A stretch of DNA of 20,255 bases from a virus. Numbering within the stretch: position 1 is the first letter of the stretch; the number at the start of each line of letters is the position of its first letter. The stretch lies in IMG/VR virus record IMGVR_UViG_3300042445_002676, positions 1 to 20,255 of that record; one strand, 5' to 3'. The position numbers and the translations under genes are program-made. Below are positions 1,591 through 19,401 of the stretch, piece after piece. Below the pieces are notes generated by a model. It had not been told where the DNA came from. It worked only from the letters and a program-made list of their open reading frames with translations, and made no database searches.

Positions 1591-2816
1591 GAATAGATTT
1601 CAAAACATTCCTTTCAGAACAAGCCGAAGCTCCAGAAGGCAAGGCATTGAAGCATTTAACACACGTCGAAGATCATGTTATTCATAATGGACATGAAGGA
1701 GTTGCTACAGCGGATGAACATCTTCGTGGCATGCATGACATGTTGTTAGGAAAAAGATCTAAACTACATGCTTCTACAAAATATGATGGAGCTCCGTCAA
1801 TTGTATTTGGTATTCACCCTGAAACTGGTCAGCCTTTCGTAGCTTCTAAATCAGCGTTTAATAAAACGCCAAAGATTAATTATAGCGATGAGGACATTGA
1901 AAACAACCACGGTCATGCTCCTGGATTAGTTGATAAGCTAAAACACGCATTGCGTCATCTTCCAAATATCTTGCCACGAGAAGGCGGTGTTTATCAAGGC
2001 GATCTAATGCACACAGAAGGCGATGCTGTTGAAAAAGATGGCAAAACTTCTGTAACTCCTAATACGCTTTCGTATTCTGCTGATAGTAATTCACCAGAAG
2101 GTAGAAATATGTTCAAAAAATTGGGCATTGTTGTTCATACAAAATATTCTGGACGTGGCGGTTTGGGTAGCATGTCAGCGCAACCACTAGACGATAAAAC
2201 ACGTGCTAAGTTCAGGGATCATCCGGATGTTAATAACATTGATCCTACTATAGATGTAAATGCATCAAACTATACACCGCTTGAACAAAAAGCGTTTCTC
2301 AATCATATGGAGAAAGCTAAAAGAGTTTACGCTTCTATGAAACCAGAGGCAATGGATGCGGTTTCTGGGCACGGAGCTAATTTAGAAGCTCATGTGAATA
2401 ACATGATTAGAACTGGCGGTGATCCGTCAGTTCAAGGATATATGGATCATTTGACTGCACGTCATCAGAAAGATCTAGAAAAAGTTAAAACTGAAGCAGC
2501 CAGACAAAAGAGAATACAGGCTCATGGCGAAATGCTTTCTCACATTAGTAATAATAGAGATCATTTCGATAAAGTGTTAAAGCTACACGGTCATCTTCAA
2601 AACGCTAAAAATGTATTAGTCGGTGTTCTAGCAAAGAACTCTCCATATGAGCATAGCGTTGCAGGAGAACATACTGGTCCAGAAGGAACAGTAGTAGTTG
2701 ATAAACAGGGCAATGCTTCTAAGTTTAATAATAGAAGAGAATTCAACCGCCTAAATTTCTTGAAAGGCGCATTCCAGAAACAGCAGGTAGCAAATGCAGA
2801 AGCTCAACTTCAGTAA
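1587..2816 (+). CDS. DUF6267-like protein with ligase-type KYDG motif, probable internal head protein
   Basis: A protein of 409 residues starting in an ATGA overlap with the previous stop. It begins MRIDFKTFLSE, another capsid-targeting-like peptide with a predicted cut after E11. Residues 65-68 are K-Y-D-G inside STKYDGAPSIVFG, which resembles motif I (KxDG) of ATP-dependent nucleic-acid ligases and capping enzymes. Further possible ligase-fold elements are GVYQGDLMH (134-142, motif III position), TPNTLSYSA (157-165) and GIVVHTKYSG (180-189, a possible motif V with K186). T4-like marine phages carry a family with the same KxDGAP, GTKSVFNK-like and NT..Y blocks; I believe this is DUF6267, but the accession is from memory. 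The C-terminal 200 residues are charged and helical. If the Lys is adenylylated, a joining or capping role on nucleic acid follows; this is untested inference. Confidence 0.85.
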   Translation: MRIDFKTFLSEQAEAPEGKALKHLTHVEDHVIHNGHEGVATADEHLRGMHDMLLGKRSKLHASTKYDGAPSIVFGIHPETGQPFVASKSAFNKTPKINYSDEDIENNHGHAPGLVDKLKHALRHLPNILPREGGVYQGDLMHTEGDAVEKDGKTSVTPNTLSYSADSNSPEGRNMFKKLGIVVHTKYSGRGGLGSMSAQPLDDKTRAKFRDHPDVNNIDPTIDVNASNYTPLEQKAFLNHMEKAKRVYASMKPEAMDAVSGHGANLEAHVNNMIRTGGDPSVQGYMDHLTARHQKDLEKVKTEAARQKRIQAHGEMLSHISNNRDHFDKVLKLHGHLQNAKNVLVGVLAKNSPYEHSVAGEHTGPEGTVVVDKQGNASKFNNRREFNRLNFLKGAFQKQQVANAEAQLQ

Positions 2817-3717
2817 TTATCTAATAGAGTCTGATCGTTCAACTCATGTTATGACATTTATGAGAGCCAATCCACCAACGATTGGTCATGAACGTGTGGT
2901 GAATCATGTTATGGATCTTGCTAAAAATTTAGACGCTGGTCATAGCATAGTTCTTTCACACTCTTTTGATGGTGATAAGAATCCATTAACAGGTGAACAA
3001 AAGTTGAGACACGCTAAATTGGCATTTCCCGGAGCTAATGTATCAACTTCTTCTCCGGAACGACCTAACATTATGAATCATGTTTCTGACCTTTATGGTA
3101 AGGGCGTGAGAAACTTACACGTTGTAGTGGGTCAAGATAGAGTTGATCAGTTCAACAAACTATTAAATCAATATAAGGGTATTAATGGCCCACATGGTCA
3201 TTATGGTACTGATATGAATATTACAGTTCATTCTGCTGGCGGGCGTGACCCTGACGCTGAAGGTGTAGAGGGCGTTTCCGGAACTGGTCAAAGAATTCAT
3301 GCAAGAAACAATAATTTTGAAGGATTCCGTGCAGGCGCACCAAGTCGTATGACTGATGAACAAGCAGCTTCGCTTATGAATGATATTCGTAACGCACAAC
3401 CTCCAGCAAAACCAGTAAAACCAGCTAAAAAGAAGTTAAAAGAAGAAACAGTTGCTGGTGGTGAAATGGTAAGAGGATTTGGTGATGTTTCTGGTAATCC
3501 AGCAGTTCAAGATAATCCTTTACAACAATATATTGGCGCTAATGCTTTGGCAAAAGATAAACAAAACGGCGCATTAATGAAGATGATGAAAGACAGTCAG
3601 CACAATTTGATTGGGTTTAAAGAATTTAATCCTCATAAAAATACTAGGGATAAAACTCTAGCTTACTATGAAGAAGACCCAAATGGCGATTATTTAAAAA
3701 ATAGAAAGAAAAAGTAA
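2794..3717 (+). CDS. HxGH-type nucleotidyltransferase (cytidylyltransferase/NMNAT-like), probable internal head protein
   Basis: A protein of 307 residues whose start lies 23 bases inside the preceding gene. The first residues, MQKLNFSNYLIE, form a capsid-targeting-like peptide. After it comes a Rossmann-like nucleotidyltransferase domain (about 17-175): FMRANPPTIGH carries the T-x-G-H form of the HxGH signature at 29-32, LHVVVGQDRVDQF is the central strand, and VSGTGQR near 162-168 matches the final (I/V)S(S/G)Txx(R) motif. This superfamily moves a nucleotidyl group from CTP or ATP to a small phosphate (glycerol-3-P, pantetheine-P, NMN, FMN); the substrate cannot be read here. The last 80 residues (GGEMVRGFGDVSGNP, MKDSQHNLIGFKEFNPHK) form a separate module that I recall in many phage proteins. 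It sits in a late operon between likely virion proteins, so it is probably packaged and injected. Confidence 0.88.
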   Translation: MQKLNFSNYLIESDRSTHVMTFMRANPPTIGHERVVNHVMDLAKNLDAGHSIVLSHSFDGDKNPLTGEQKLRHAKLAFPGANVSTSSPERPNIMNHVSDLYGKGVRNLHVVVGQDRVDQFNKLLNQYKGINGPHGHYGTDMNITVHSAGGRDPDAEGVEGVSGTGQRIHARNNNFEGFRAGAPSRMTDEQAASLMNDIRNAQPPAKPVKPAKKKLKEETVAGGEMVRGFGDVSGNPAVQDNPLQQYIGANALAKDKQNGALMKMMKDSQHNLIGFKEFNPHKNTRDKTLAYYEEDPNGDYLKNRKKK

Positions 3718-5030
3718 TGGCACAGTTTCGTAAAGATACACATCAATTTTTAGGCGATAATAAAACTCTTTTTGAAGTTGTGCAAATTGCTGATCAATAT
3801 GGAAATATGGTTGGCGCTGCCAATCCTTCTGGAGTTGCTGTTGATGCTTTTGGTAGAGCCAGAGTTTCAACCCCTTTAACACTTTTTGATTCTTCTCATC
3901 GTTATCGCGATAATAACTTGTGGTCGACTTCAAACACTGCTGGTGGAACTTATGCTTTTTCTACCAATGAAGGTCTTGTAAATCTAAACGTATCAACAGC
4001 AAATAATGCAGAAATTATTCGTGAAACAACTAAAGTGTTTTCTTATCAGCCTGGTAAATCATTACAAATTCTACAGACATTTGTTATGCAACCAAAGGCA
4101 AATGTTCGTCAGCGTGTAGGATATTATGGCGCTAACAATGGTATCTATTTTGAGTTGGTAGGTAATACAGCATATTTGGTCGAAAGATCTTTATCAACAG
4201 GAGTAATGCAAGAGACAAGAGTAGCACAGTCTGATTGGAATATGGACACTCTGTTGGGTCAGGTCGCTTCAAGTCCATCTGGCATAACTTTGGATTTAAC
4301 CAAAGCCCAAATTATGTTCATTGATATTGAATGGCTTGGTTTAGGTACAGTAAGATGTGGTTTTGTTATTGACGGTAAATTCATTCACTGTCATTCCTTT
4401 CACCATGCTAATTTTGTTACCACAACATATATGACCACAGCATCTCTTCCATTGAGATATGAAATTAAAAATACAGGCGTAACTGCAAGTAATACAACTC
4501 TAAAACAAGTATGTTCCACTGTTATTTCTGAAGGCGGATATGAACTAAGAGGTCTTCAACAAGCAGTTGGAACAGCTATTGGGGCGCCAAGAGATTTGAC
4601 AACAGTTAATACATACTATCCAGTTGTCTCAATTAGATTGAAGGCTTCTCCAGATAGACTTGACGGTATTGTTATTCTTACTGCTTTATCATTAATAGCA
4701 ATAACCAACAATGCTAATTATAATTGGAGAGTTGTAGCTTCTGGCGCAACTACAGGCGGAACATGGGTTTCTGCAGGAGATGATTCTGCTGTTGAATATA
4801 ATATTACAGGAACAAGTTTCGCTGGTGGTAGAATTTTGGCTTCTGGATGGACTAATGGTTCTAATCAGGGTTCAAGTCCTGTTGATATTTTAAAAGAAGC
4901 ACTATTCAAGTTTCAGTTAGAAAGAAACGGTCTAACTTCTAGTTCTTATGAGTTAACATTAGTTGCTGCAGCAGATTCTGCGGGCGCTGATATATACGCA
5001 TCTATGGATTGGGAAGAAATCTCAAGATAA
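3717..5030 (+). CDS. phage virion structural protein
   Basis: A protein of 437 residues beginning in a TAATG overlap with the nucleotidyltransferase gene. It is beta-rich, with many Ser/Thr/Gly/Asn residues and no membrane segment. The central DIEWLGLGTVRCGFVIDGK and FHHAN stretch (roughly residues 203-238) is a block I recall from structural proteins of T4-like marine phages and other large tailed phages. The opening is also typical of virion proteins (QIADQYGNMVG, VDAFGRARVSTPLTLFDS). No capsid-targeting peptide is seen, so it is more likely an outer or tail-associated part than an internal one. Its exact place in the particle is unknown. It closes the first late operon. Confidence 0.8.
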   Translation: MAQFRKDTHQFLGDNKTLFEVVQIADQYGNMVGAANPSGVAVDAFGRARVSTPLTLFDSSHRYRDNNLWSTSNTAGGTYAFSTNEGLVNLNVSTANNAEIIRETTKVFSYQPGKSLQILQTFVMQPKANVRQRVGYYGANNGIYFELVGNTAYLVERSLSTGVMQETRVAQSDWNMDTLLGQVASSPSGITLDLTKAQIMFIDIEWLGLGTVRCGFVIDGKFIHCHSFHHANFVTTTYMTTASLPLRYEIKNTGVTASNTTLKQVCSTVISEGGYELRGLQQAVGTAIGAPRDLTTVNTYYPVVSIRLKASPDRLDGIVILTALSLIAITNNANYNWRVVASGATTGGTWVSAGDDSAVEYNITGTSFAGGRILASGWTNGSNQGSSPVDILKEALFKFQLERNGLTSSSYELTLVAAADSAGADIYASMDWEEISR

Positions 5031-5037
5031 GATCTTT

Positions 5038-5045
5038 TATAAATA
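5038..5045 (+). promoter_or_regulatory. T4-type late promoter (TATAAATA)
   Basis: An exact TATAAATA in the only sizeable gap of the left half, just after the stop of the structural gene. It is 71 bases from the octamer end to the ATG at 5116, giving a leader of about 65 bases, longer than at the first late promoter. It would drive the Dps and low-complexity protein block. Confidence 0.8.
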
Positions 5046-5115: not shown

Positions 5116-5883
5116 ATGAAAAAGTTTAATTCATTTGAAACTCAGCTAGGCGAGTCTGTCGTACTCACTGACAAGGCCAAATTATCCCTTTATAAAAAAT
5201 CCCAAAATTCAGGTTACTCAGTCGATATTCTTGAAGAAGTATATCGTAGAGGTTATAATTGCTGGACCGAATCATTCGGCGGCAATGCGAATTCATTTGC
5301 ATTCGATAGAGTAAATTCATTCATTGCAGGAGGTTTCGCTGTGGAACTAGACGAAGATCTTAAAAAAGCATGCTGGAAAGGTTATGAAGCCGTTGGCATG
5401 AAGATGAAAAACGGTAAAAAAGTTCCAAACTGCGTCCCTGTAAAAGAAGAAGATGCGGAAAAACATTCAACAGATTCAGAGGATCCAACTTCAAGATTTA
5501 TTGGTTCTGACGAATTAGTTGCTATCTATAAAAAAGAAACTCCTGGCCAAATTGTTAAAAGAGTAGTTCGTGAAGCAATTGAAATTGTTGATGCTATGGA
5601 CGAACTTGAAGAAGATTGGCAGGATTCAAAATATAAGAACCCAACAGGCGGTTTAACAAAGGCTGGTGTCATGGCATATCGTCGTGAAAATCCAGGTTCA
5701 AAGTTACAAACAGCAGTTACAACTAAGCCTTCTAAACTAAAGAAGGGAAGCAAGGCGTATAATCGCCGTAAGTCATTCTGCGCTCGTATGGGTGGCATGA
5801 AGAAGAGACTTACATCTGCTAAGACTGCAAGAGATCCAGATTCAAGAATCAACAAAGCACTACGTAAGTGGAACTGCGAGTAA
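5116..5883 (+). CDS. modular phage protein (DUF5824-like and DUF6321-like segments)
   Basis: A protein of 255 residues, first gene behind the second late promoter, with GGGAAAC-type upstream sequence before the ATG. Three blocks are visible. Residues about 30-85 (GYSVDILEEVYRRGYNCW and ARVNSFI-like DRVNSFIAGG) resemble the small family I know as DUF5824. Residues about 90-115 carry ACWKGYEAVGMKMKNGKK followed by VPNCVPV, a motif common in phage head-region proteins. The C-terminus (about 172-255) has KNPTGGLTKAGVMAYRRENP, PSKLKKGSKA, RRKSFCARMGGMK and a final ALRKWNC, a cassette usually listed as DUF6321. Family numbers are from memory. The first residues, MKKFNSFETQLGE, contain an L-x-E that could be a prohead protease site. 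Basic C-terminus (many Lys/Arg) suggests nucleic-acid contact. Function unknown. Confidence 0.82.
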   Translation: MKKFNSFETQLGESVVLTDKAKLSLYKKSQNSGYSVDILEEVYRRGYNCWTESFGGNANSFAFDRVNSFIAGGFAVELDEDLKKACWKGYEAVGMKMKNGKKVPNCVPVKEEDAEKHSTDSEDPTSRFIGSDELVAIYKKETPGQIVKRVVREAIEIVDAMDELEEDWQDSKYKNPTGGLTKAGVMAYRRENPGSKLQTAVTTKPSKLKKGSKAYNRRKSFCARMGGMKKRLTSAKTARDPDSRINKALRKWNCE

Positions 5884-5895
5884 GGAATTAATCAA

Positions 5896-6807
5896 ATGGA
5901 CCAGAGACATATAGACATTATTAAGAAAGTCATCAAAGAAATAGCAATGGACATGCCTCCGCAGATCGAGCGTCCATCAATTACTCGTGCTGCTCCTCAG
6001 AGACAGTTTAGTCGTTCAGTTACAACTAGCGGAAGAATGGGTTCTGGCGCAGGAGCAATGCGTGGTGGCGTTCAGGTTCAAAGAGCCGCACCTGCAAGAC
6101 CAGTTTCTGCTAGAATGAATGCTTCTCAGGGCGGATCATTGAAAGTTTCTTCAACAAACGTTCCTGCAAGAGCAGCCCCACCAGCCCCACCATCAGGAAG
6201 AATGGTAGGCACAGGTGGTTCTATGAGCGTAAAGCCAACCGTTACTAATAGAGGAATGGAAGCATCAAAGTTTTCTGTTCAAAAGGGAATGTCTGCAGCT
6301 GGTAGAGAAGCAGGTGAGAAAGCAGCATCAAAAATTATTCCAGCTGCAGCTGAAAAGGTTGCTGGCGGTGTATTAGGAAAGATTGCTAAAACAGCAATGG
6401 GTCCTGCTGCTGGCGCTGCTATGGCAGTTATGGAACCAACTCCAGCTGGCGAAAAGATGTCAGAGTTCCAGAGACAGGATGTTATGAAGAAGTATAACCC
6501 ATTCAAGTCTCAGGGTCGTTCTATTGATGATTATGAAAAGCAGCAGGTAACACGCAAATCAGCTAGTGCTCCAACAGCTGCAGAAGCACCAAGACCAAAG
6601 GTTGATGCTCCAACTCCACCATCAAGACCAGAATATTTCTCACGTGGTCAGGCATTCCAGGCTGCTAGAGCAGAAAAAGGTGGTGCAGGTGGTAAGTTTG
6701 AATATGGTGGTAAAGAATTCCAGACTAACGTTAAGAGCGAACCATACGTTAAGTCACCAACTGCTACAAGCGTAAAGAGCGAAACTGAATCAGGAAAGAA
6801 AAAATAA
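5896..6807 (+). CDS. Ala/Pro/Arg-rich low-complexity protein with FxxAFxxAR module
   Basis: A protein of 303 residues, 12 bases after the previous stop, with AAGGAA before the ATG. Most of it is low-complexity (Ala, Pro, Ser, Arg, Met, Gly) and strongly basic, typical of disordered DNA-associated virion proteins. An Ala/Gly-rich stretch near residues 130-180 (AAGREAGEKAASKIIPAAAE, GPAAGAAMAVM) could be helical or membrane-active. Near residues 247-280 there is a compact module, GQAFQAARAEKGGAGGKFEY then GGKEFQTN, repeated in the 794-residue protein at 9034. The N-terminus includes VIKE (I-x-E), a possible protease cut point. It ends KSETESGKKK, similar to ESGGKK tails in neighbours. No enzyme motif was found. 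Confidence 0.8.
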   Translation: MDQRHIDIIKKVIKEIAMDMPPQIERPSITRAAPQRQFSRSVTTSGRMGSGAGAMRGGVQVQRAAPARPVSARMNASQGGSLKVSSTNVPARAAPPAPPSGRMVGTGGSMSVKPTVTNRGMEASKFSVQKGMSAAGREAGEKAASKIIPAAAEKVAGGVLGKIAKTAMGPAAGAAMAVMEPTPAGEKMSEFQRQDVMKKYNPFKSQGRSIDDYEKQQVTRKSASAPTAAEAPRPKVDAPTPPSRPEYFSRGQAFQAARAEKGGAGGKFEYGGKEFQTNVKSEPYVKSPTATSVKSETESGKKK

Positions 6808-7253
6808 TGATTGGCAAGATTGAACCAGTTGAAGCATTAAAGGTAGCATTAGCTGACACATACGTGTTTGCTGTAAAGGCTCAGCATTATCACTGGAATG
6901 TAACAGGTCCGCATTTCTCTGATTACCATGCTTTCTTTGGTGCTTTGTATGCAGAGTTAAATCCTGCAATAGATTTAATTGCTGAATCTATTAGAACATT
7001 TGATGCATTTTCTCCTGGTTCTATGAAAAGATTTTTAGAACTAACAACTATTGAAGAAGCAACTAATATTCCTGATGGTCTAGTTATGATCAGCAAGCTT
7101 GCTTCTGATAACGAAAGAGTTATTGCTTCTCTTACTTCTGCATACGAATTATGTGAAAAGCATAAACATTACGCTGTATCAAATATGTTACAGGATCGTC
7201 TAACTGCTCATCAGAAGCATGGTTGGATGCTAAGATCGTTTATAAAGGCATAA
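6807..7253 (+). CDS. dps: Dps-like ferritin-family protein
   Basis: A protein of 148 residues, starting in a TAATG overlap. The Dps signature is clear: QHYHWNVTGPHFSDYHAFF followed by YAELNPAIDLIAESIR. Dps proteins form dodecameric shells that oxidise Fe(II) with H2O2 and may bind DNA. Mapping the inter-subunit ferroxidase ligands of E. coli Dps (H51, H63, D67, D78, E82) gives H29, H41, G45, D56 and E60, so four of five are kept and the acidic residue at the D67 position is Gly. The N-terminal tail is short and lacks the Lys-rich DNA-binding extension of E. coli Dps. Length is normal for the family. The gene is embedded among low-complexity virion-type genes and should be transcribed late with them. 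No L/I-x-E site is present near its N-terminus, so packaging by the same signal is not supported. Family call is strong; catalytic competence is open. Confidence 0.92.
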   Translation: MIGKIEPVEALKVALADTYVFAVKAQHYHWNVTGPHFSDYHAFFGALYAELNPAIDLIAESIRTFDAFSPGSMKRFLELTTIEEATNIPDGLVMISKLASDNERVIASLTSAYELCEKHKHYAVSNMLQDRLTAHQKHGWMLRSFIKA

Positions 7254-7256
7254 CAA

Positions 7257-8564
7257 ATGAGAAGTTTAGAACACATCATCAGAGATATAAGAGAGGGCAA
7301 GGCTTCTAAGGGCAAAAAGAGTAGCCTAGAACACTCTATTCGTAAAGTTGTATCAAAAGAATACGAATCTTCATTCGGCGCTAAAGATAGCAAACCAGTT
7401 GATGAAGATGTCGGTGGATTGGCTGGCAGCGGTACTGGTGGTGAACCTAAACTTCATACAGAAGACGGAAAGAAAAAGAAAACTGATGAAGCAGTTGTTG
7501 GTGCTATTGGTACAGACAAGTTTCAAGGTAATGAATTTAAATCAATAAGAACTACAACACCTCATATTAAGCCACCAGCTGGCGAAGGAAGTCATTCACA
7601 GGCTCCCGAAAACGCTTCAAGACAAAGATCTATTGCTAAAGAAAGAGCAGGCATTAATAGAGTTAGCGAATCAAAACTTGATTTCGCTGATCCAATAGCA
7701 AAAAACGCTGCAGAATTGCTACTTAAAGTAGCTCCAGAAGCTAAACTTCCTGCTATTTTCAGACCAAAAGGAATGCCAGCTAAACCAAAAGCTGGAGTTC
7801 CGGAAGTTATACCACCAAAGAAAGCTGAAGTTCCAGCTAAGGTTGAACCCAAGACTGTTGTTGAACCTAAGACTGAAGTCCCAGCAAAAGTTGATACTAA
7901 AACTGAACCAAAATTAGCAGCACCTGAAAAGGTAGACACTAAAACTGAACCAAAATTGGTTTCGCCAGAAAAGGTAGATACTAAACTTGCTGCACCTGGT
8001 AAAGAAGATGTTAAACTTGCTGACCCTGATGTTAAAACATCACCAAAACTTGCAGCTGTTGAACCAGCCGTAAAGGCAGCTATTCCTGGAATAGCAAAAA
8101 CTGCTGGAAAATTGGCACCATTTATTCCTCCATTTATCGGAGGCATGGGTTCAATGCCAACAAAAGACGCTTTTGATTTCAGATCAAAAAAAGTGCCAGT
8201 AGCTTCTCACATTCATCACGCAAAAAGACATATGAAAGAAGAAGTTGCTTCTGAATTGAGAAAGAAGATTCAGAACATGCCAAGAAAAGATGCTGGAGAT
8301 CGTAAGTCAATTGAATATGTTGGTCGTATGGATTCTGATCCTAAGTCTGCTAAAGAAAAGACTTCAAGATTGGCAATAATCAAAAATGTAATTGATGAAG
8401 CCAAAAAAGAAAAGGCAATGAAGCCAAGAGTTGAAACTGAAAGCGGTATGGGTAAAGAAAAAAAGTTTATTTATCCAAATGATACTGAAGTTGTTATTGG
8501 TCCAAACCCAAAGAACAATTTTCTAGATGTAGAAACAAGGAAAATGCCAAATGACAACCAATAA
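7257..8564 (+). CDS. Lys/Pro/Glu repeat protein with SLEHxIR N-terminus
   Basis: A protein of 435 residues starting 3 bases after the Dps stop, with AAAGG before the ATG. The N-terminus holds two copies of a short motif, SLEHIIRDI (3-11) and SLEHSIRKV (23-31); I recall MRSLEH-type starts in T4-like phages of Alphaproteobacteria. IRE at 11-13 is a possible prohead protease site. Residues about 175-280 are a degenerate Lys-Pro-Glu repeat (K-V-D-T-K-T-E-P-K-L units). A hydrophobic Gly/Pro-rich stretch follows near 275-300 (LAPFIPPFIGGMGSM), then a charged C-terminus rich in Lys/Arg with KKVPVASHIHHAKRHMKEEV. The composition suggests a disordered, DNA- or protein-binding internal head protein. 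No catalytic motif is visible. Confidence 0.8.
   Translation: MRSLEHIIRDIREGKASKGKKSSLEHSIRKVVSKEYESSFGAKDSKPVDEDVGGLAGSGTGGEPKLHTEDGKKKKTDEAVVGAIGTDKFQGNEFKSIRTTTPHIKPPAGEGSHSQAPENASRQRSIAKERAGINRVSESKLDFADPIAKNAAELLLKVAPEAKLPAIFRPKGMPAKPKAGVPEVIPPKKAEVPAKVEPKTVVEPKTEVPAKVDTKTEPKLAAPEKVDTKTEPKLVSPEKVDTKLAAPGKEDVKLADPDVKTSPKLAAVEPAVKAAIPGIAKTAGKLAPFIPPFIGGMGSMPTKDAFDFRSKKVPVASHIHHAKRHMKEEVASELRKKIQNMPRKDAGDRKSIEYVGRMDSDPKSAKEKTSRLAIIKNVIDEAKKEKAMKPRVETESGMGKEKKFIYPNDTEVVIGPNPKNNFLDVETRKMPNDNQ
7887..8000 (+). repeat. in-frame 42-bp tandem repeats
   Basis: Two adjacent 42-base units at 7887-7928 and 7929-7970 encode KVDTKTEPKLAAPE and KVDTKTEPKLVSPE; a third, diverged unit begins at 7971 (KVDTKLAAPG). 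Synonymous differences between units show the copies are not fresh. Confidence 0.75.
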
Positions 8565-13999: not shown

Positions 14000-15022
14000 A
14001 TGGATTGGCTGGCTCACAAGTATATCGGTATTATTTCTACTCGTTTAGAAAAGTTTAAACGTAAGGGTCCAAACCTTTACAACTTCCGCTGTCCTGTATG
14101 CGGGGATTCCGAAAGTCATCAGAATAAAGCACGAGGATACATCTACCAGAAGGATGGCAAGATGTTGTTCCATTGTCACAACTGTAATGCTACAATGGGA
14201 ATTCCCAACTTTATTAAGATGCTTGATGTCAACTTATATAATGAGTATCAGTTAGAAAAGCTGGCTGATAAGAAAACGCCTGAGCAAGATGATTACGAAA
14301 AGTTCGTAGAGAAAATGCGGAAGCCAGTTTATATGACTTCCGGACCATTGAAAGGATTGAAGAAAGTATCTCAGCTTTCGCCATTTGATCCAATCAAAAA
14401 GTTTGTTGTGGAGAGAAAGATACCTAATGTATATCACGCCAAGTTATTTGCATGTCCTAATTTTAAGCATTTTACTAATAATTTGGTTCCCAACAAGTTT
14501 TCAGCTGAGTCTCTGGCTAAAGATGAGACAAGACTTCTTATCCCTTTTCTTGATAGTAATAAGACTGTTCATGCCTTCCAAGGGAGAACGTTGGGATCTT
14601 CAACAGTTAAATATATTACAATTGTTCTTAATCAATCAATACCTAAACTTTATGGCTTGGACACTGTTGATCGTAACAGAATTATTCCTGTCCTTGAAGG
14701 TCCGATTGACAGTATGTTTGTTCCTAATAGTATTGCTACTGCTGGAGGTGATCTCGTTAGTGCAGTAACAGATTTTGATAAATCTAGGTTGACAATTGTG
14801 TATGATAATGAGAAATATTCTAAAGAGACCGTTAAGAAAATGGAAAAGGCTATTCTTAATGGTTACTCTGTGTGTATTTGGCCCGATAATTTAGATCAAA
14901 AAGATATTAACGATATGGTTTTATCTGGTATGAGTTCTGAATTTATTGAACATATTATCAAAACTAACACCTATCGTGATTTACCGGCACAATTAAGGTT
15001 GAATCAGTGGAAGAGAGTTTAG
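14000..15022 (+). CDS. 61: DNA primase, T4 gp61-like
   Basis: A protein of 340 residues, nearly identical in length to T4 gp61 (342). It makes short RNA primers for lagging-strand synthesis together with the replicative helicase (gp41 in T4). A zinc-binding domain lies at about 29-58: [12 protein letters not shown] and FHCHNCN give the C-x2-C...C-x2-C set. The TOPRIM catalytic core includes [11 protein letters not shown] (Glu near 231), TAGGDL, and [10 protein letters not shown] (Asp near 266), followed by [16 protein letters not shown]. The C-terminal [18 protein letters not shown] looks like the native end of this family. GAGGA precedes the ATG at 7 bases. The last 59 bases overlap, on the other strand, the end of a homing endonuclease gene. 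Confidence 0.93.
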
Positions 15023-15485
15023 ATTTCTTTGATGCTGAGATTTTTGCTTTATGTTCTTCGGACATAGGACCACGAGGGCCAGTTTTTACGCCTTTGTTCC
15101 AAGCAGGTCTTCCTTTCATTCGAAGCGAGTGAGCAGGATTTTTGCCTCTTCTAGAAGCGTATTTTTTAATACGATCTTCTATGCTATACGGACCATATGG
15201 ACCCACAGGACCGGATCTGACAGGCGGCATATCTCCTCCTTCAGTTTTATTATGGAGAACACCATTGTTTAAATCTTTTCTGCCATACCATCTGATATAT
15301 CTGCGTTCTAATGCTAAGGCGCCAATTTCTGTTAAATTGCTCTCTAAGAATACAATTTTGGATTTGTCTTTTGGAACAGAAACACCATGTTGTTTGGAGA
15401 AAGCTCTTTTATCTTTTCCCTTACCAATGTAATATGGAGTATTATCTGATGATCTTAGGTAGGCGTATACGTAATAAATATTCAT
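14964..15485 (-). CDS. GIY-YIG homing endonuclease with NUMOD3 motif
   Basis: A protein of 173 residues from the ATG at 15485, chosen because GAGGAG lies 8 bases upstream on the minus strand; an in-frame start 14 codons earlier lacks such a site. Residues 3-13 ([11 protein letters not shown]) and 18-24 (YYIGKGK) are the GIY and YIG motifs, and [17 protein letters not shown] followed by NKTEGGD holds the conserved Arg and Glu of the catalytic domain. Near the C-terminus, [20 protein letters not shown] and [10 protein letters not shown] form a NUMOD3 DNA-binding module. These enzymes cut alleles that lack them and spread by repair. It is the only minus-strand gene here and is free-standing, with no intron seen. 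Its last 18 codons are antisense to the primase end. Confidence 0.92.
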
Positions 15486-15501
15486 GCTGTCGCTCCTCTT
15501 T

Positions 15502-15543
15502 AGCGGTAGAGTAGGTAGAGACTGCAATCTCGTGACCTACGCT
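15502..15543 (+). other. imperfect hairpin upstream of homing endonuclease
   Basis: GTAGGT (15511-15516) pairs with ACCTAC (15535-15540), GAGA (15518-15521) with TCTC (15528-15531), and AGC (15502-15504) with GCT (15541-15543). On the minus strand it falls in the leader of the endonuclease transcript. It has faint tRNA-like text but cannot be folded as a tRNA. Confidence 0.4.
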
Positions 15544-18465: not shown

Positions 18466-18620
18466 ACAACGCTAAGATTGAAGAACTTGCAAAATGGGCT
18501 GCTAACAAACTAAACGGTGGCAACTGGTATGATGAAAAATTCTATCAGTTCGGACACAAAGAAGCATGGATGAATATGATCAAAGAATTGATTGAAAGGT
18601 TAGAAGATGAACGACGCTAA
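18462..18620 (+). CDS. small hypothetical protein overlapping thyX
   Basis: A protein of 52 residues, MNNAKIEELAKWAANKLNGG, then NWYDEKFYQFGHKEAWMNMI and a helical KELIERLEDERR end. It begins in an ATGA overlap and ends 14 bases inside thyX, so it is probably translationally coupled to thyX. Its first six codons (MNNAKI) are nearly the same as those of thyX (MNDAKI). No domain is recognised. Confidence 0.7.
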   Translation: MNNAKIEELAKWAANKLNGGNWYDEKFYQFGHKEAWMNMIKELIERLEDERR

Positions 18621-19401
18621 AATTATTGCTATTACACAACCAACGATAACACTTCCGCCAAGCGATGAATTGTTTGGACAAATCCGCCCTATGACTGCCG
18701 AAGAGTTTATCTGTTATACAGCAAGAGTTTCTAATCCATCTAATCAGAATAACACACTAACTGCACCTAAACTTCTAAAGTATCTGATTGAGCATAAGCA
18801 CTGGAGTCCTTTTGAGATGGTGTCTATCACAATGGAAATCAATACAACCCGTGATATCTCGCATCAGATCATTCGTCACCGTTCATTCTCATTCCAAGAG
18901 TTCTCACAGCGTTATGCTGATCCGACCAAGGACATGGCATTCGTAACGAGAGAAGCACGATTGCAGGATGCTAAGAACCGTCAGAATAGTATTGAGATTA
19001 CAGGTGATAATGCGGATGATAATGAAGTGAAGAATCTTTGGGGTTTCTGGCAAAGAGAAGTCACACAGAAATCAAAAGAAGCATACAAAGAAATGATTGT
19101 GATGGGTCTGGCAAAAGAGCAAGCCAGAGCAATTCTTCCAGAAGGTCTAACTTCTACTCGTCTATATATGGCAGGGACGCTTCGTTCGTGGATTCATTAC
19201 ATTGATGTTCGTGCAGAAGAAGGCACACAAAAGGAACATCGTGAGGTTGCACTAGCAGCACAGCAAGAGATTCTAAAGCACTTCCCATCATTGGAAGAAT
19301 ATTGGTATCCGACTCCTCCAACACCAGAAGAGTTAGAAGCGACATACGGTGTTGAAAAAATTGAACAACTCTGTAAAGAACCTTGGTGGAGGTTTTGGTG
19401 A
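18607..19401 (+). CDS. thyX: flavin-dependent thymidylate synthase ThyX
   Basis: A protein of 264 residues, a normal ThyX length. The signature RHRSFSFQEFSQRY (about 90-103) matches RHRxxSxxxxSxRY exactly. Upstream, HWSPFEMVSITMEI holds the His/Glu of the nucleotide site, and EQARAILPEGLTSTRLYMAG followed by HYIDVRAEEGTQKEHR gives the C-terminal flavin/dUMP-binding Arg residues. It makes dTMP from dUMP using methylene-tetrahydrofolate, FAD and NADPH. It lies just before a ribonucleotide reductase gene, so the pair supplies dNTPs for phage replication. GGTTAGAAG upstream is a weak ribosome site, so coupling to the overlapping gene is likely. Confidence 0.96.
   Translation: MNDAKIIAITQPTITLPPSDELFGQIRPMTAEEFICYTARVSNPSNQNNTLTAPKLLKYLIEHKHWSPFEMVSITMEINTTRDISHQIIRHRSFSFQEFSQRYADPTKDMAFVTREARLQDAKNRQNSIEITGDNADDNEVKNLWGFWQREVTQKSKEAYKEMIVMGLAKEQARAILPEGLTSTRLYMAGTLRSWIHYIDVRAEEGTQKEHREVALAAQQEILKHFPSLEEYWYPTPPTPEELEATYGVEKIEQLCKEPWWRFW

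Follow-up and report, generated by a model that had tools for sequence, protein, structure and literature searches.

A phage-encoded Dps miniferritin with glycine at the disputed fifth ligand position, and the recurrent placement of its relatives among head and packaging genes

The Dps protein of Escherichia coli binds DNA. The role of its fifth ferroxidase ligand, the acidic residue at position 67, is disputed. In canonical Dps proteins this acid reaches iron site B only via a water, and Dps4 of Nostoc punctiforme has a non-coordinating Asn at this position but still binds two irons and uses O2 to oxidise Fe2+ (PMC6675082). Elsewhere, E. coli Asp67 has been assigned to a low-affinity site and, together with Glu64, to nucleation (PMC6150300). 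Dps PA0962 of Pseudomonas aeruginosa binds two irons via four ligands only (His37, His49, Asp64 and Glu68) and, given divalent cations, cleaves DNA in vitro (PMC10002758), and Agrobacterium Dps protects DNA without binding it, according to the entry title of PDB 1o9r. Phages encode Dps as well; the proteins of gut and Lactobacillus phages have been read as an aid in host stress (PMC8008677, PMC6669764), i.e. as a metabolic extra helping the host. The internal proteins and prohead core of phage T4, encoded between genes 20 and 21, are products of late genes located beside head genes.

The window analysed here is a viral DNA stretch of 20,255 nt (positions 1 to 20,255 of IMG/VR record IMGVR_UViG_3300042445_002676), for which a preliminary description had proposed a Dps protein with Gly at the fifth ligand position. 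This observation was confirmed by family, structure and ligand comparisons. The product of the gene (Table 1) matched PF00210 (Ferritin) at 1.7e-23 and 83.6 bits, above the curated cut-off of 24.5, and phrog_3636 at 9e-29; its best match in the PDB was P. aeruginosa PA0962 (8ff9; 2e-26). The AlphaFold model (57 aligned sequences; pLDDT 96.3, pTM 0.91) is a four-helix bundle with a short BC helix (helices 5-31, 37-63, 73-79, 91-118 and 122-146) and was superimposed on 8ff9 by VIA-align with a Z of 24.3 and an rmsd of 1.1, all 148 residues being covered. None of the NCBIfam Dps equivalogs reached its cut-off (54.7 bits vs 170 for NF041388; 35.2 bits vs 114 for NF006975). By fold and sequence the protein is a Dps, and fold and conserved interface ligands point to the usual 12-subunit cage as its most likely assembly.

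The window Dps has the same four direct iron ligands as PA0962 at about 35% identity. In contrast, PA0962 is chromosomally encoded and has a short N-terminal extension, Glu at position 45 (which is no iron ligand there) and Asp at pore position 134. Equivalents of E. coli His51, His63, Asp78 and Glu82 are present, whereas Asp67 is replaced by Gly45, Glu64 by Ala42, and the Lys-rich DNA-binding tail is missing. The lack of an acid at position 67 is shared with the His-type centre of Nostoc Dps4, whose Asn also occurs in 41 viral sequences (see below); unlike the window protein with its Asp56, however, Dps4 has His at position 78, and it has a third-subunit His where the window Dps appears to have Met141. 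Comparison with relatives of the same clade gave dN/dS values of about 0.02-0.15, indicating strong purifying selection. In a tree of 79 representatives, viral and nearest bacterial Dps were split by one branch (support 98/87), with a long-branch warning for the S-SRM01 type. No close relative occurred in cultured phage records, where all matches were below 60% identity and the best was at about 35%. Nor did the phage record collection searched contain a cultured phage with dps adjoining packaging or portal genes.

Table 1. Features of the dps region of the window
Feature	Position	Strand	Evidence
Virion structural protein (head and packaging)	3717..5030	+	phrog_1645, 8.8e-155
T4-type late promoter motif TATAAATA heading the operon (putative)	5038..5045	+	Kept in relatives
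First operon gene, C-terminal DUF6321, phrog_727 family	5116..5883	+	PF19846, 1.5e-18; phrog_727, 4e-44
Low-complexity protein, stop overlaps dps start (TAATG)	5896..6807	+	No family match
Dps-family miniferritin, 148 aa	6807..7253	+	PF00210, phrog_3636, AlphaFold, VIA-align
Codon of H29 (E. coli Dps His51), ferroxidase ligand	6891..6893	+	Same residue in all 179 viral and 79 bacterial sequences
Codon of H41 (E. coli His63), ferroxidase ligand	6927..6929	+	Invariant
Codon of Gly45, at the E. coli Asp67 position	6939..6941	+	Alignment
Codon of D56 (E. coli Asp78), ferroxidase ligand	6972..6974	+	Invariant
Codon of E60 (E. coli Glu82), ferroxidase ligand	6984..6986	+	Invariant
Codon of N126, at iron-pore residue D134 of P. 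aeruginosa Dps	7182..7184	+	Alignment; D134 role, PMC10002758
Low-complexity protein, N-terminal motif SLExxIRxIxE	7257..8564	+	Motif search

The gene had been described as locked between low-complexity virion genes downstream of a late promoter. The tight arrangement was borne out, as the dps ATG overlaps the stop of the upstream gene and the next ATG follows 3 nt after the dps stop. A virion assignment was obtained only for the phrog_1645 gene ahead of the run, whereas the low-complexity neighbours themselves had no virion family match. The putative promoter TATAAATA lies in the intergenic stretch ahead of the run's first gene, 1.77 kb upstream of dps. Its number in the window (4 vs 1.3 expected; as many in 7 of 100 shuffles) is not striking alone; however, the motif recurs 72-79 nt upstream of the first operon gene in most distinct relatives, where 0.018 would be expected per stretch, which supports the proposed late promoter. 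Sigma-70 promoters and terminators around the operon did not exceed the shuffled background, and no tRNAs were found.

The motif SLExxIRxIxE at the N-terminus of the downstream product was detected in 15 of 224 distinct genes directly following dps, including those of the distant phages L497, L518, L545 and L571, and was absent from all 1338 genes at a greater distance. The DUF6321/phrog_727-type product of the first operon gene has a CWKGYEAVGMKMKNGKKVPNCVPV-like motif, and similar ones adjoin Dps in unrelated phages, e.g. L641 and L495. Two further ORFs of the window, 1587-2816 and 2794-3717, start with N-termini (MRIDFKTFLSEQ and MQKLNFSNYLIES, respectively) that match the T4-like capsid-targeting motif. 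Such N-termini occurred in 54 of 1338 genes of these phage loci compared to 4.2 in shuffles (about 13-fold), which hints that many proteins of these phages may be head-targeted or ejected; as the enrichment extends across the loci generally, they are not specific to dps neighbours. The window Dps did not match the motif, and a capsid-targeting N-terminus common to Dps and its neighbours was accordingly rejected.

Relatives of the window Dps are encoded within head and packaging genes in several arrangements. In 104 of 316 viral loci (62 distinct Dps, down to 55% identity), dps directly follows terS and directly precedes terL; most gaps to TerS measure -1 to 11 nt and most gaps to TerL -1 to 6 nt. 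In L034, for example, the order according to PHROGs is head-tail connector genes, sheath stabilizer, TerS, Dps, TerL, sheath, tube and portal. Among 76 new contigs found by TerL alone, Dps was present in all 73 informative ones, the remaining three beginning too close to TerL to show it. In the window lineage, terL directly adjoins terS with no dps in between, and the large records have one Dps each; thus, the placement of Dps differs by lineage.

A second setting is the vicinity of the portal gene. A pattern scan for Gly-type Dps yielded 80 loci among the matches listed, and two of these, L519 and L547, code for a protein of 440 aa whose residues 111-240 form the Dps domain. The fusion gene lies downstream of portal and is followed by two small genes and then by those for head maturation protease, scaffold and major head protein. 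It thereby sits in the portal-protease interval, as do the T4 core genes between genes 20 and 21, although the T4 internal proteins have no sequence relation to Dps. In L541 and L504, Dps fusions directly follow a phrog_776 portal, and that of L541 has DUF5824. In a further scan, 41 additional loci were obtained from another phage type, with portal directly upstream in 40 of the 40 that had a complete Dps motif (position 45: Gly 30, Ala 5, Arg 4, Ser 1). In addition, a BFVD fold search returned three models named 'Prohead protease' (333-763 aa) that contain a Dps fold, a putative fusion as judged from names and lengths. The DNA of these fusions was looked for and not found; a protease domain is absent from the recovered Dps fusions, whose other parts are low-complexity or DUF5824. 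The loci of any one context share ancestry and do not represent independent events, and Fisher p-values calculated from these sequences are descriptive only because of that relatedness. No account of Dps within phage packaging genes was found in the open-access full texts searched; judged by these, the head/packaging contexts in particular, but also the clade and its Gly/Asn site, look undescribed.

The terS-Dps-terL, portal-Dps and portal-Dps fusion-protease relatives, taken together with the conserved late-promoter motif, support the earlier proposal that Dps would be made at the packaging stage. On balance, and with moderate confidence, we favour the explanation that the protein is a phage-specific, late-made Dps miniferritin that would serve head assembly and genome packaging, probably by detoxifying iron and peroxide near the DNA. 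Fold, ligand set, conservation, gene run, late-promoter motif and recurrent head/packaging placement argue for it; late clusters also host unrelated genes, however, so that position alone is no proof of a head role. Dps would be produced late, together with the head-assembly and packaging genes, and would bind Fe2+ at the retained four-ligand site between subunits. The bound Fe2+ would be oxidised, preferably with peroxide, and free iron and peroxide would be kept from forming hydroxyl radicals (Fenton) beside genomes that are packaged or stored, phage DNA being the presumed target. Gly45 may weaken or retune the second iron site only, and, as the protein has no basic tail, Dps would act through iron chemistry rather than by coating DNA.

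The occurrence of Dps in head/packaging clusters of many uncultured aquatic phages suggests that genomes are shielded with miniferritin help. Tentatively, Dps might recur as a structural or functional component of phage heads: tailed phages of different types might repeatedly have recruited a miniferritin into the prohead/packaging machinery, the genome being packaged or travelling with an iron- and peroxide-scavenging cage. If true, oxidative DNA protection would be part of phage head assembly, which bears on virion lifetime in water and sunlight.

Dps cages or domains might also be built into the head as prohead or virion components and stay there, guarding packaged DNA or acting as a core. 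This possibility, which we regard as real but rather unlikely, overlaps with the favoured late-made miniferritin and adds physical presence in heads. The Dps domain in the protein filling the slot between portal and prohead protease, the three BFVD models and the phrog_1645 virion protein as a neighbour in the window are all consistent with it. However, a T4-type capsid-targeting N-terminus, as encoded by other window genes, is missing from the Dps, and the BFVD fusion is judged from names and lengths.

Several phage Dps are encoded outside head modules, as would be expected of an auxiliary host-stress gene, i.e. a captured Dps that lowers iron and peroxide throughout infection and keeps the host alive, with no special link to the head. 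This role has been proposed for the gut and Lactobacillus phage proteins (PMC8008677, PMC6669764). In the cultured phages Salmonella 7-11, Proteus Privateer and Aeromonas LAh_8, Dps (phrog_3636-like) belongs to a phage-encoded family like that of the window, but keeps Asp at position 45 and lies in metabolic regions, among nucleotide-metabolism genes. The cyanophage-like clade D (S-SRM01) has Gly at position 45, as does Synechococcus phage S-EIVl, but adjoins PstS, porin and Zn-ribbon genes instead of head genes; S-SRM01 Dps is 33-35% identical to the window protein, and the S-SRM01 and S-EIVl contexts comprise porin/sugar genes or sulfate adenylyltransferase. In the clade D loci L347-L395, Dps lies beside an 85-aa Zn-ribbon-like protein, downstream of PstS-like or porin-like genes. 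Both the clade D loci and the three cultured phages also count against a dedicated head-related function. The terS-terL, portal-adjacent and portal-protease placements and the conserved late-promoter motif would nevertheless be left unexplained, and we consider a pure host-stress role unlikely for the window Dps. In contrast to the earlier view of phage Dps, a large uncultured aquatic phage clade has the gene repeatedly in head/packaging genes, and one lineage has it as a fusion in the prohead gene row.

Ligand positions were assigned by aligning the window Dps to 8ff9, 1ji5 and 1jig. The alignment agreed with the preliminary description in that H29, H41, D56 and E60 are kept while Gly45 takes the place of Asp67; all three structures have Glu there. 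Across 179 distinct viral relatives, H29, W30, H41, D56 and E60 were invariant, whereas position 45 was Gly in 118, Asn in 41, Asp in 15, Ser in 3, and Ala and Met in one each, but never Glu. The 79 nearest distinct bacterial Dps had Glu (69), Met (8) or Gln (2). Gly, Asn or Asp at position 45 is, on these alignments, a trait of the viral Dps clade. Gly is not universal in phage Dps, as Coruscant, like 7-11, LAh_8 and Privateer, has Asp, and BS162P1 has Glu. A sample of 790 genomes, unranked by similarity and searched with one DNA pattern for the surrounding motif, gave 185 bacterial Dps in which the residue, read by eye from the listed matches, was Glu in 143, Met in 26, Gln in 11, Asp in 4 and Gly in one, the acid thus being missing in 38 (21%). 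The sole Gly belonged to a chromosomal gene adjoining an Hsp70-like gene (L400), and bacterial Dps with Met or Gln were common (L092, L094, L098 and others; Massilia and others). Lack of the acid is therefore common, while Gly or Asn is nearly confined to these phages.

Since the acid is absent from these 38 proteins and from the active Nostoc Dps4, it is not a condition of Dps membership, and the missing ligand was dropped as an exceptional feature after the bacterial sample. With Gly45 and D56, the window protein has neither the acid at position 67 of the canonical E. coli-type centre nor the His for Asp at position 78 of the His-type ferroxidase. The check for another acidic residue filling the site, suggested in the preliminary description, was run on all alignment columns, and no acid gained in phage Dps was found near Gly45. 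Position 42, the equivalent of E. coli Glu64, is acidic in 64% of viral Dps but Ala in the window and was rejected as a substitute for Asp67; the acid at position 50 is also present in normal Dps.

As published structures give position 67 a water-mediated role or none, Gly45 does not imply loss of ferroxidase activity. The reports on PA0962, Dps4 and E. coli Dps, combined with Ala42 and Gly45, lead us to expect that the strong iron site works and that the second site or core formation is altered. The weight that had been placed on the missing ligand was not upheld, given the four ligands used by PA0962 (PMC10002758), the active Dps4 with Asn (PMC6675082) and the 38 of 185 bacterial proteins. 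The iron pore of the viral proteins, as judged by alignment, is remodelled: the position of PA0962 Asp134 is Asn in 165 of 179 viral but Asp in 73 of 79 bacterial Dps, and that of Gln138 is acidic in 165 of 179 viral Dps, so that the pore acid is shifted to position 130. A degenerate Dps that serves as a structural cage only, with no iron chemistry, could be proposed on the grounds that Gly45 and Ala42 remove both reported E. coli nucleation residues (PMC6150300). The four direct ligands and the adjacent Trp, invariant in 179 sequences, and the retained, shifted pore acid make this improbable. With its natural variation between Gly, Asn and Asp at the disputed position, the viral clade lends itself to a ready test of what the fifth ligand does in Dps chemistry.

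The preliminary description had also considered compaction of phage DNA. In the window Dps, helix A is preceded by 7 residues, one of them Lys; the C-terminus is not extended, and the pI is 6.2. The median number of residues before helix A is 2-7 in phage Dps and 15 in bacterial Dps, and phage Dps have a pI of 4.6-6.4. E. coli Dps binds DNA and related genes lie beside packaging genes, but without a basic N- or C-terminal tail and with an acidic pI, coating or condensation of the phage genome is not favoured and appears very improbable. Protection without binding has a precedent in Agrobacterium Dps (1o9r). Iron sequestration with DNA protection is the favoured half of the earlier interpretation, which stands in part: the packaging stage is supported, the emphasis on a missing ligand and DNA compaction are not. 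Least probable of all is a metal-dependent DNA-cleaving Dps used on host or concatemer DNA, since cleavage by PA0962, although this is the closest solved structure and cuts DNA in vitro (PMC10002758), has no mapped catalytic residues, overall identity is only about 35%, and cutting would be harmful beside packaging DNA.

A few further features were observed. In helix B of L047 and its relatives (clade C), which include contigs of 320-331 kb, one extra residue lies between position 45 and D56 and might form a bulge close to the ferroxidase site. In the window, a homing-endonuclease-like gene (14964-15527, minus strand; phrog_314, phrog_15526) overlaps the end of the DNA primase gene, and ORF 18607-19401 encodes a ThyX thymidylate synthase (PF02511).
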